64,000 nucleotides of DNA from Thermus neutrinimicus (GTDB taxonomy: Bacteria; Deinococcota; Deinococci; Deinococcales; Thermaceae), in the NCBI RefSeq assembly GCF_022760955.1, contig NZ_JAKTNU010000002.1, positions 124,001-188,000 of the forward strand, read 5' to 3'. The notes below the pieces were generated by a model. The model did no database searches. It was not told the origin of the DNA and was given only the letters and a program-made list of their open reading frames with translations. Of the stretch, positions 60,451 to 64,000 are shown in pieces. The translations under genes were made by a program, and so were the position numbers. How positions within the stretch are numbered: the stretch's first letter is position 1; each line of letters starts with the position of its first letter.

Positions 60451-61268
60451 TGGTCTACTCCCTAGGGGTTCCCCTCTACGCCAACACCGCCCCCCTATAC
60501 CATTTCCTGGAAGCCCATGGCTGGACCCTCCGCCACGGGGTCCCCGCGGAACTCAACCGCATGGTGCTCTCGGGGGAGGTGGGGCTTTCCCTGGTTTCCA
60601 GCTACTTCTACCTGGAGCACCAGGAGGAGCTCGGGCTTCTTCCCGACTTCTCCGTGGCCGTGCTGGGGAGGGTGTACTCCGTGAACCTGTTCCACAAGGG
60701 AAGGCTTAGAGACCTGGGAAGGGTCGCCCTCACCGCGGAAAGCGCCACCAGCGTGGAGCTCCTTAAGCTCCTCCTGAGGGAACGGGGGATCTTTCCCGAG
60801 TACGAGAAGCGGGAGGGGGGGCTTGAGCTCCTCCGGGAGTACGACGGGGTCCTGCTGATCGGCGACAGGGCCATAAGGGCCTACGCCAGCCTCCTGGACC
60901 GCCTTCCCGAAACCCCCCACGCCCTGCCCACCCGCTTTGGGGAGGTGGAGGTGCTGGATCTCTCCATGCTCTGGTTCGAGCGCACCCGCCTTCCCTTTGT
61001 CTTCGCCGTCTGGGCCTACCGCAAGGAAACCCCTCCCCCCCTGGAGTTGGTACAGGCCTTAAGGCGGGCCCGGCGCCAGGGGCTTGCCCGGCTCGGGGAG
61101 GTGGCCGAGGCCGAGGCCAGGCGGCTGGGAGTCCAGCCTGCCCTTATGGAACACTACCTGTGGAACTTCCGCTACCACCTGGAGGAGCCCGACCGCCTGG
61201 GCCTACAGGCCTTCGCCCAAGCCCTGGGCCTTTCCTTTGTCCCTGCCTACTACCCCGAAGCCCCTTGA
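60450..61268 (+). CDS. mqnA: Chorismate dehydratase
   Basis: A 272-residue periplasmic-binding-like fold enzyme (MqnA) that dehydrates chorismate to 3-enolpyruvylbenzoate, first step of the futalosine pathway. Motifs: LGVPLYANTAPLYHFLE, GVPAELNRMVLSGEVGLSLVSSYFY, VALTAESATSVELLKLLL, DGVLLIGDRAI and DLSMLWFERTRLPFVFAVW. It ends inside the -35 box of the aro promoter. Confidence 0.94.
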   Translation: MVYSLGVPLYANTAPLYHFLEAHGWTLRHGVPAELNRMVLSGEVGLSLVSSYFYLEHQEELGLLPDFSVAVLGRVYSVNLFHKGRLRDLGRVALTAESATSVELLKLLLRERGIFPEYEKREGGLELLREYDGVLLIGDRAIRAYASLLDRLPETPHALPTRFGEVEVLDLSMLWFERTRLPFVFAVWAYRKETPPPLELVQALRRARRQGLARLGEVAEAEARRLGVQPALMEHYLWNFRYHLEEPDRLGLQAFAQALGLSFVPAYYPEAP

Positions 61269-61293
61269 CAGCGTCCTTCCCTTCCCCTATCCT
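61265..61293 (+). promoter_or_regulatory. Promoter of the aroF-tyrA operon
   Basis: TTGACA (61265-61270) and TATCCT (61288-61293) with a 17-bp spacer. The -10 ends 10 nt before the leader-peptide ATG. The -35 overlaps the mqnA stop codon. Confidence 0.88.
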
Positions 61294-61303
61294 TGGAGGC
61301 AAT

Positions 61304-61369
61304 ATGCGGACCCTTGGGCGCCACTTCGGCTTTTATTATCCCGCCGGGGGCGCCCTGCGGCCTGCATAG
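61304..61369 (+). CDS. Aromatic leader peptide
   Basis: A 21-codon frame with the core HFGFYYPAGG: Phe at codons 8 and 10 (TTC, TTT) and Tyr at 11 and 12 (TAT TAT). TAT and TTT look rare in neighbouring genes, which use TAC and TTC. GGAGG lies 5 nt before the ATG. It ends in TAG before the terminator hairpin. The aromatic codons match the products controlled by the next gene, DAHP synthase. Confidence 0.82.
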   Translation: MRTLGRHFGFYYPAGGALRPA

Positions 61370-61417
61370 GGTTTTTCGCAAGAGGGCGCCCCCAAAAAGG
61401 GGGCGCCCGAGGCTTTT
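61316..61417 (+). promoter_or_regulatory. Phe/Tyr transcription attenuator
   Basis: Four segments: A GGGCGCC (61316-61322), B GGGGGCGCCC (61346-61355), C GGGCGCCCCC (61384-61393), D GGGGGCGCCC (61399-61408). C pairs with D over 10 perfect bp around AAAAA, followed by GAGGCTTTT (terminator). B is identical to D, so B-C is an equally perfect antiterminator. A-B is a 7-bp protector. The Phe/Tyr codons (61325-61339) lie between A and B, so a ribosome stalled there would mask A and free B. Confidence 0.82.
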
Positions 61418-61428
61418 GGGAGGCCAAG

Positions 61429-62463
61429 ATGCTGATCGTGATGAAGCGGGGACACACGGATGCGGAGCTGGATGAGGTGATCCGGGAGATCGAGAAGGTG
61501 GGCTACCGGCCCCACATCTCCCGGGGGGTGGAGACCACCCTGGTGGGGGCCATCGGCCGGGGGCCCACCCCGGAGCTGATGGAGCACTTCCGGGCCCTTC
61601 CCGGGGTAGCGGACGTCATTCCCATCTCCAAGCCCTACAAGCTGGCGAGCCTCGAGGTCCAACCCTTCCCCACCATCCTGGAGTTTCCCACCGGCAAAAC
61701 CGGAGGCGACCACGTCCTCGTGGCCGCAGGCCCTTGCGGGGTGGAGTCGAGGGAGCAGACCCTGAAAGCGGCGCGTTACGTGAAGGCCCACGGGGCCGCC
61801 ATGCTCCGGGGCGGAGCCTTCAAGCCCAGGACTAGCCCCTACGCCTTCCAGGGCCTGGGGCTGGAGGGCCTAAGGATCCTGGCGGAGGCCCGCCGGGAAA
61901 CGGGACTTCCCGTGGTCACCGAGGTCTTATCCCCAGACCAGGTGGAGCTGGTGGCGGAGTATGCCGACGTGCTGCAGGTGGGGGCCCGCAACGCCCAGAA
62001 CTTCCCCCTGCTTCAGGCGGTGGGTGAGGCGGGGAAACCCGTCCTCCTCAAGCGGGGCATGAGCATGACCCTGGAAGAGTTCCTGATGAGCGCGGAGTAC
62101 ATCCTCTCCCGGGGCAACATGCAGGTCATCCTGGTGGAGCGGGGCATCCGCACCTTTGAGAAGGCCACCCGCTACACCCTGGATGTCTCCGCAATCCCCG
62201 TGCTCAAGAGCCTTACCCACCTTCCCGTCTGGGTGGACCCCTCCCACCCCGCAGGCCGGCGGGAATGGGTCATTCCCCTGGCCCTGGCGGGTCTGGCCGC
62301 CGGGGCGGATGGCCTCATCGTGGAAACCCATCCCGAACCGGAAAAGGCCCTTTCCGATGCCGCCCAGCAGCTCCACGAGCACGAGTTCGCCGAGCTCATG
62401 GCCAAGGCCCGGCGCCTGGTGGAGGCCCTGGGCAAAACCCTCGCCGCTCCCGTTCTGGGATGA
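61429..62463 (+). CDS. aroF: DAHP synthase, type I-beta with N-terminal regulatory domain
   Basis: A 344-residue 3-deoxy-7-phosphoheptulonate synthase that condenses PEP and erythrose-4-phosphate, first step of the shikimate path. Residues 1-70 form the ferredoxin-like regulatory domain ([20 protein letters not shown]) as in the T. maritima enzyme, which is inhibited by Tyr and Phe. The catalytic part has AAGPCGVES (metal Cys), [33 protein letters not shown], and [19 protein letters not shown] precedes the ATG at 61429. Its expression is gated by the attenuator, so control would be both allosteric and transcriptional. Overlaps tyrA by ATGA. Confidence 0.95.
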
Positions 62464-63539
62464 AGCCGCTTTTCGCCAAGGTGGGCATCTTCGGTGTGGG
62501 GCTTCTGGGCGGGAGCGTGGCCCTGGGGCTAAAGGAACGCTTCCTGGCCGAGGAGGTCCACGCCTACGACCAGGATCCCGAGGCCCTGGAAAAAGCCCTT
62601 TTCCTGGGGGTGGCGGACCGGATCCACCCTGAGCCCGGCCCCTGGGTAGGGGAGCTGGAGCTGGGCGTCCTGGCGGCCCCCGTGGGGGCCCTGGTGGGTC
62701 TGGGGAAGGCCCTGGCCCCCTTCGCCAACCCGGAAAGCCTCTGGACCGACGTGGGTAGCGTCAAGGCCCAGGTGGTGGGGGCCCTGGAAGGCCTCCTCCC
62801 CCACTTCCTGGGGGGCCACCCCATGGCGGGAAGCGAACGGGCCGGGGTGGAAAACGCCCACGCGGGCCTTCTGCAAAACGCCATCTGGGTCCTAACCCCC
62901 ACAAGGCGGACCAGCCCCCAGGCCAAGGAGGGAATCCGGAAGCTGGTGGAGGCCCTGGGGGCCTACCCCTTGGAGATGACCCCGGAGCTTCACGACAACT
63001 TGGTGGCCCGCATCTCCCACCTGCCCTACCTCCTGGCGGTGGCCCTGAACCGCCTGGTGGCCCATAGCCCCCACCGGGACCTCCTGATGTTTTTGGCGGC
63101 CGGGGGATTCCGCGACCTCACCCGGGTGGCCTCCGGCTCCCCCAGGATGAGCCGGGACATGGTGGTGGAGAACAAGGAAGCCCTCAGGGAGGCCATGGAG
63201 GAGCTGAGGGGGGTCCTTTGGGAACTGGAGGGGCTCCTGGACGAACCCGAGGCCCTGCTACAGGCGGCGGAGGAAGCCAAGCGCACCCGGGATAGCCTCC
63301 CCATCGTGCGCCGAAGCCTCCTCCCCGAGATGCACGACCTGGTGGTCCAGGTGCCAGACCGCCCGGGCCAGATCGCCCGGATCGCCACCGCCTTGGGGGA
63401 GGCCGGGGTCAACATCAAGGACATCGAGGTCCTCACCATCCGGGAGGAGGCCGGGGCCATCCGCCTGGGCTTCGCCAGCCGGGAGGAGCGGGAAAAGGCC
63501 CGGGAGGTGCTTTCCCAGGTGGGGTACCGGATCCCCTAA
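62460..63539 (+). CDS. tyrA: Prephenate dehydrogenase with ACT domain
   Basis: A 359-residue TyrA. The NAD site is VGIFGVGLLGGSVALGL, active-site segments are DVGSVKAQVV and HPMAGSERAGVENAHAGLL (His), plus SHLPYLLAVAL; residues about 285-359 form an ACT domain (LVVQVPDRPGQIARIATALG, NIKDIEVLTI) that probably binds tyrosine. It oxidises prephenate to hydroxyphenylpyruvate. With DAHP synthase it forms a two-gene operon controlled by Phe/Tyr codons. The ATG at 62460 overlaps the DAHP synthase stop. Confidence 0.95.
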   Translation: MKPLFAKVGIFGVGLLGGSVALGLKERFLAEEVHAYDQDPEALEKALFLGVADRIHPEPGPWVGELELGVLAAPVGALVGLGKALAPFANPESLWTDVGSVKAQVVGALEGLLPHFLGGHPMAGSERAGVENAHAGLLQNAIWVLTPTRRTSPQAKEGIRKLVEALGAYPLEMTPELHDNLVARISHLPYLLAVALNRLVAHSPHRDLLMFLAAGGFRDLTRVASGSPRMSRDMVVENKEALREAMEELRGVLWELEGLLDEPEALLQAAEEAKRTRDSLPIVRRSLLPEMHDLVVQVPDRPGQIARIATALGEAGVNIKDIEVLTIREEAGAIRLGFASREEREKAREVLSQVGYRIP

Positions 63540-64000
63540 GGAGCCCGCTCCACCCGGTTCCTGCCCCTCTTTTTGGCCAAGTACAGGGCACTATCGGCCC
63601 TTTGGAAAACCTCCTTCACATCCCCCCGGTACACCGCCACCCCAAAGCTTCCCGACACGCCCAAGCGGCTAAGCTCCGCCCTGAGCCTCTCCGCTACCCG
63701 CATGGCCTCCCCCTCCTCGGCGCGGGGGAGAAGGATGGCGAACTCCTCCCCACCCCAACGCCCCACCAAATCCCCGTGGCGGACGTGGGCGATCAGGAAC
63801 TGGGCCACCTCCTTCAGAAGCCGGTCCCCTTCCTGGTGGCCCTGGGTGTCGTTCACCCGCTTGAAGTGGTCCAGGTCCAAAAGGACCAAGCTAAACGGCT
63901 TCTCCCCTCGGTCCACCCGGGCGGCCTCCCGCTCTATGGCCATCTCCAGGGCGCGGCGGTTGGGCAGGCCGGTCAGGGGATCGGTGAGGGCCTGCTCCCG
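63536..64000 (-). CDS. GGDEF-domain diguanylate cyclase (5' part missing)
   Basis: The visible C-terminal 154 codons form a GGDEF domain: DPLTGLPNRRALEMAI at the right edge, LVLLDLDHFKRVNDTQGHQEGD, the active site GRWGGEEFAILLPR, and ALYLAKKRGRN at the end. The GGEEF signature and preserved Asp imply c-di-GMP synthesis; RHGD five residues before GGEEF is a product-inhibition I-site (RxxD). The frame is open through the right edge, so the sensory part is not seen. It converges with tyrA with a 4-nt overlap. Confidence 0.92.
   Translation of the reverse strand, partial: REQALTDPLTGLPNRRALEMAIEREAARVDRGEKPFSLVLLDLDHFKRVNDTQGHQEGDRLLKEVAQFLIAHVRHGDLVGRWGGEEFAILLPRAEEGEAMRVAERLRAELSRLGVSGSFGVAVYRGDVKEVFQRADSALYLAKKRGRNRVERAP

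Follow-up and report, generated by a model that had tools for sequence, protein, structure and literature searches.

A putative ribosome-mediated attenuator with phenylalanine and tyrosine codons precedes the aroF-tyrA operon across the Thermaceae

Known attenuators and the aroF-tyrA locus of Thermus

The Yanofsky-type attenuators of Escherichia coli, namely those of pheA, pheST and trp, follow a protector, antiterminator and terminator logic. The same logic is also described in PMC11802643, which summarizes as well the work of Neshat et al. (2014) on the aroR-aroF attenuator of Corynebacterium glutamicum. Here a Phe-Tyr-Phe leader lies ahead of an operon that includes a DAHP synthase gene; ribosome stalling under Phe limitation enhances transcription, and the system responds to Phe with no response to Tyr. 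In Acholeplasma, the uORFC-13-1 motif combines an upstream ORF bearing one or more Phe codons with a terminator stem before aroF, and attenuation has been proposed for it computationally (PMC8632094). A survey from 2010 held leader-peptide attenuation to be unknown outside Proteobacteria and Actinobacteria, except for a then new hisS case in Firmicutes (PMC2965389). A search of the literature, covering papers outside subscription, found no paper on aromatic attenuators of Thermus and Meiothermus, nor one on the present element in Deinococcota. The initial annotation of this DNA had called attenuation of DAHP synthase by both Phe and Tyr codons little described in Deinococcus-Thermus; what is new, as far as searched, is the phylum (Deinococcota) and the details, whereas the kind of attenuation is already known from the published C. 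glutamicum aroR and Acholeplasma cases.

The element lies at the end of the analyzed window, a stretch of 64,000 nucleotides from Thermus neutrinimicus, where the locus reads promoter, 21-codon ORF, three pairing segments (B, C and D), Shine-Dalgarno sequence (GGGAGG, 61418-61423), DAHP synthase gene and tyrA, all on the forward strand. The DAHP synthase gene (61429-62463) codes for a type I-beta enzyme with a ferredoxin-like regulatory N-terminal domain (Pfam PF18152 and PF00793; NCBIfam NF006421, TIGR01361), a relative of PDB 1rzm, which likewise has a ferredoxin-like N-terminal domain. Its stop codon is overlapped by the start of tyrA (62460-63539), whose product is a prephenate dehydrogenase carrying an ACT domain (PF02153, PF20463, PF01842). 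The two genes adjoin each other in 57/57 loci checked, a count that includes some places twice. Convergent with tyrA, the reverse strand carries an open frame (63536-64000) whose GGEEF motif suggests a diguanylate cyclase. The genome has a second DAHP synthase (L002, G000:C1:334282-335040) with a chorismate-mutase-like N-terminal region; no aromatic leader ORF was found either before this gene or before pheA/PDT (L091).

The leader ORF (61304-61369, from ATG at 61304 to TAG at 61369) encodes the 21-residue peptide MRTLGRHFGFYYPAGGALRPA, with the codons TTC GGC TTT TAT TAT (F G F Y Y) at 61325-61339. As the initial annotation had it, an FGFYYP leader starts just after a consensus promoter, and the four Phe/Tyr codons fall exactly where it placed them (TTC 61325-61327, TTT 61331-61333, TAT 61334-61336, TAT 61337-61339). 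At the window's combined Phe and Tyr frequency of 6.3%, four such codons among five consecutive ones are expected ~0.001 times per 20-codon ORF. The leader also prefers T-ending codons when compared with the window genes, in which TTT makes up 26% of Phe and TAT 16% of Tyr codons.

The sigma-70-type promoter (61265-61293) consists of a TTGACA -35 box (61265-61270), a 17-nt spacer and a TATCCT -10 box (61288-61293), and the leader ATG lies 10 nt past the latter. This distance is 8-11 nt in 44/44 leaders with enough upstream DNA. Transcription is expected to start at ~61300, and a spacing of 8-11 nt should leave a 5′ UTR of only ~1-4 nt; the leader ORF is thus probably leaderless or nearly so. 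With the ATG this close to the 5′ end, the GGAGG (61295-61299 in the window) or GGGG just before it would be mostly untranscribed, lying mostly 5′ of the expected start point; it may act as a discriminator for the polymerase, an idea drawn from general knowledge of the Thermus sigma factor. The E. coli pheA, pheST and trp leaders share the protector, antiterminator and terminator logic of the aroF leader but have a normal 5′ UTR with a Shine-Dalgarno sequence. A start codon near the 5′ end is instead seen in leader peptides of Streptomyces lividans attenuators, for which leaderless cases are documented (PMC8079986). Like C. glutamicum aroR, which we know by its published description, the aroF leader places Phe and Tyr codons before a DAHP synthase gene; it differs in its phylum, in its own stems, in the Trp codon of its Meiothermus versions and in being followed by tyrA, which is absent from the aroR description. 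The Acholeplasma uORFC-13-1 motif likewise belongs to a different phylum, and no Tyr codon cluster is described for it.

Conservation of the leader and its alternative pairings

This DAHP synthase was found at full length in 45/50 genomes of the family, and a search by name also recovered it from species of Thermus, Meiothermus and Calidithermus. Upstream DNA was read for 45 Thermaceae genomes, and in each of them a leader ORF with a cluster of Phe/Tyr codons lies ahead of the orthologous gene; the expected conservation of these codons was thus borne out in every Thermus, Meiothermus and Calidithermus leader. The 28 Thermus-type leaders carry FGFYYP, FGFYPP, FGFYRP or YGFYPP, and the 17 from Meiothermus and Calidithermus mostly (F)FGYFYWP, with an extra Trp codon (Arg at this place in L044). 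Peptide length ranges from 21 to 33 codons, yet the aromatic block remains near segment B throughout. A Pro codon (61340-61342 in the window) follows the block in all 45 aroF leaders and in nearly all trpE leaders of these bacteria. One leader (L039, G012) is separated from its DAHP synthase gene by an insertion of ~100 nt containing another TTGACA box, perhaps a bypass promoter.

Four segments of the leader can pair in mutually exclusive ways. Segment A, the 5′ protector arm (61304-61321), pairs through 61304-61312 with 61359-61367 and through 61316-61321 with 61350-61355. Segment B (GGGGGCGCCC, 61346-61355) is the 5′ arm of the antiterminator, extended by 61356-61359, which pairs with 61377-61380. 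Segment C (GGGCGCCCCC, 61384-61393) is common to the antiterminator, with B, and the terminator, with D (GGGGGCGCCC, 61399-61408), whose 3′ arm the latter forms. B and D are, exactly as first noted, identical 10-mers competing for C. This duplication had been singled out in the description of the element; while exact, it is no special feature, because both segments pair with C and any antiterminator/terminator pair will therefore have them alike.

Across 26 distinct Thermus sequences, C:D and the core of B:C are paired in 100% of alignment cells, the B:C extension in 87.6%, and the two A helices in 91.5% (61304-61312:61359-61367) and 97.4% (61316-61321:61350-61355); the structure as a whole is paired in 96.3% of cells, as against 36-57% when slid. 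In Thermus, B, C and D are almost invariant and no pair shows a double compensatory change, so covariation within the genus is uninformative. The anticipated covarying stems were therefore not seen within Thermus but have a counterpart in the comparison between genera: the arms of Meiothermus and Calidithermus differ wholly in sequence (GTCCCCG, CTTCCGGGGAC, CCCCGGAAG) and form the same three pairings, with a few two-sided compensatory changes. Both the B:C and the C:D stem are maintained across these relatives, and we take the retention of three alternative pairings by different arm sequences to be the main structural evidence.

Putting these features together, we propose, with a probability of about 0.88, that the aroF-tyrA operon is controlled by ribosome-mediated transcription attenuation at this element. 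As RNA polymerase makes the leader, whose ORF would begin at or within ~4 nt of the 5′ end, a scarcity of charged tRNA-Phe or tRNA-Tyr would halt the ribosome on the TTC, TTT or TAT codons of 61325-61339. The halted ribosome would hide A and leave B free to form the B:C antiterminator; D would then stay single-stranded and transcription would proceed into the DAHP synthase gene and tyrA. With both charged tRNAs plentiful, the ribosome would reach the stop codon and hide B, C:D would form, and transcription would end near 61414-61417. Without translation, the start of the ORF would pair with its end (A:B), and C would again be available to D.

Termination, ribosome position and chance

The least canonical part of the element is the tract following the hairpin (GAGGCTTTT, 61409-61417), whose U-run (61414-61417) lies ~5 nt off the stem. 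A comparison of terminators covering the window and the loci read shows that the stem is perfect in Thermus and is followed by a sequence like AAGGCTTTT, (A/G)AGG(C/T)UUUU, and not by an immediate U-run; this displacement, of ~4-5 nt, recurs in essentially all Thermus aroF leaders, with the U-run abutting the Shine-Dalgarno sequence. In Meiothermus and Calidithermus, a U-rich run follows the hairpin. On the standard U-tract score, the aroF leader of the window reaches 0.24, trpE in this genome 3.69 and Meiothermus aroF ~4.8. Of the terminator originally proposed, the perfect C:D stem stands, but in Thermus it lacks an adjacent U-run. Given a U-run ~5 nt from the stem and a score of 0.24, termination in Thermus is what we infer; U-runs that are displaced or broken likewise occur in trpE attenuators elsewhere in the genus, and this makes a functional displaced-U terminator plausible.

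The trpE leader of the same genome (L090, upstream of G000:C1 353198) encodes MSPLPALWWPG from an ATG 6 nt past the -10 box and ends in a hairpin with U5, and leaders with WW precede trpE in 29/30 family members examined. The trpE and aroF leaders of Thermus and Meiothermus occur in the same genomes and have the same layout, with a -10 box near the ATG, a short ORF with aromatic codons followed by Pro, a GC-rich hairpin and then the gene. They differ in that the former has Trp and the latter Phe/Tyr codons, and in that the trpE U-run is adjacent to the stem in this genome and variable in others, ranging in the relatives from an adjacent U5 to a displacement of ~5 nt. A trp attenuator-like leader was reportedly noticed in T. 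thermophilus as early as 1988.

The displaced U-run abutting the Shine-Dalgarno sequence would also fit a reading in which the leader peptide and the switch are as described but the Thermus C:D hairpin does not itself terminate, serving as a pause or acting through Rho-dependent termination, through mRNA stability or by affecting how ribosomes load at the DAHP synthase gene, which has its start codon 21 nt beyond the hairpin. We regard this as unlikely, since Meiothermus has a canonical U-rich terminator at this place and the Thermus trpE attenuators extend from an adjacent U5 to a similar displacement (GGCGCTTTTTTGG in G032), such that displacement seems to be tolerated in the genus; moreover, C:D covers neither the Shine-Dalgarno sequence nor the start codon, and no segment was seen to pair with the Shine-Dalgarno sequence in one state only. 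A separate candidate, an alternative Shine-Dalgarno switch in which the A-tract of the loop would pair with the U-run, was judged by eye and dropped because the loops (AAAAA, AAACG, CAAG, AACC) do not vary with the U-run.

For the attenuator itself, the position of the aromatic codons was compared with that of the structural switch by placing a ribosome at every codon of each leader in turn and folding the uncovered RNA, both with and without D transcribed, under an assumed footprint of 12 nt beyond the first base of the A site. In the window, these folds allow the antiterminator with the A site at or before 61337 and no longer once the ribosome is past Pro-Ala; with the ribosome at the stop codon, the terminator alone forms. 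In every one of the 45 leaders, the last Phe/Tyr codon is followed by the predicted switch at a distance of 0-4 codons, and the antiterminator is impossible with the ribosome at the stop codon. At 37 °C, the equilibrium model usually favors the terminator even with B free; hence, as in classical attenuators, the proposed mechanism needs B:C to form while D is still untranscribed. In the Meiothermus and Calidithermus leaders, all aromatic codons, the Meiothermus Trp codon included, fall in the zone where a stalled ribosome permits the antiterminator in the folds. It is tempting, if still tentative, to suppose that the FFGYFYWP leader of these genera might let the gene for the first enzyme of the pathway respond to each of its three aromatic end products, and that in Thermus a Tyr, Pro or Arg at the Trp position might have left a leader that senses Phe and Tyr and has a non-canonical terminator with a displaced U-run.

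Retention of the Pro after the aromatic block and of the nearby Gly across genera exceeds what codon counting needs, and could hint that the FGFYYP sequence itself stalls the ribosome, in the manner of the TnaC and Erm arrest peptides, without regard to tRNA charging. However, conservation among the leader peptides is confined to Gly, the aromatic block and Pro; the residues before the block and after Pro differ between genera, and the conserved C-terminal residues of Thermus are explained at the RNA level, by the helix between the two ends of the ORF. The order and number of aromatic residues vary as well (FGFYYP, YGFYPP, FGYFYWP, FGYFYFYWP), as codon sensing predicts, making nascent-peptide arrest very improbable.

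Recurrence of the exact D 10-mer alone is seen in 154/20000 shuffles of the ORF (~0.8%) and is less impressive because the DNA is GC-rich; by comparison, none of 5000 dinucleotide shuffles of the leader gave a perfect hairpin of at least 9 bp with its 3′ arm repeated upstream, and the fold of the leader is more stable than 199/200 shuffles (z -3.0). Conservation is stronger evidence for the element than these chance tests: the arrangement persists in 45 genomes and across genera whose arms differ in sequence, which already refutes the notion of chance repeats in GC-rich DNA beside a meaningless short ORF, the odds of which are negligible. No Rfam covariance model matched a leader at gathering score in the window, nor was anything meaningful recovered at a relaxed threshold over 61200-61500; a T-box or other Rfam leader was accordingly rejected.

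Leaders of sister families and biological significance

Ahead of the same DAHP synthase gene, two further families of this order have a conserved leader of another type. Its ATG lies 6-10 nt, mostly 6-7, past the -10 box, and 10-17 codons further on there follows, in frame, a near-perfect Shine-Dalgarno sequence and then an ATG or GTG with the peptide [ED][DE]GY, usually with a second Tyr. The pattern occurs in 18/111 genomes of the phylum, once in each, with 0 matches in any genome for the reversed control; in two genomes (L106, L107) it precedes tyrS instead. The two in-frame starts, together with the single Tyr codon of two members, set it apart from ordinary attenuators, and it may not be one.

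At the aroF-tyrA and trpE operons, two putative attenuators with probably leaderless or nearly leaderless leader ORFs are conserved across a thermophilic family, which suggests that tight coupling of transcription and translation is exploited at high temperature. Such elements make a ready system for asking how Thermus RNA polymerase terminates at stems with a displaced U-run, and the aroF leader would offer Thermus genetics a Phe/Tyr-responsive control element.
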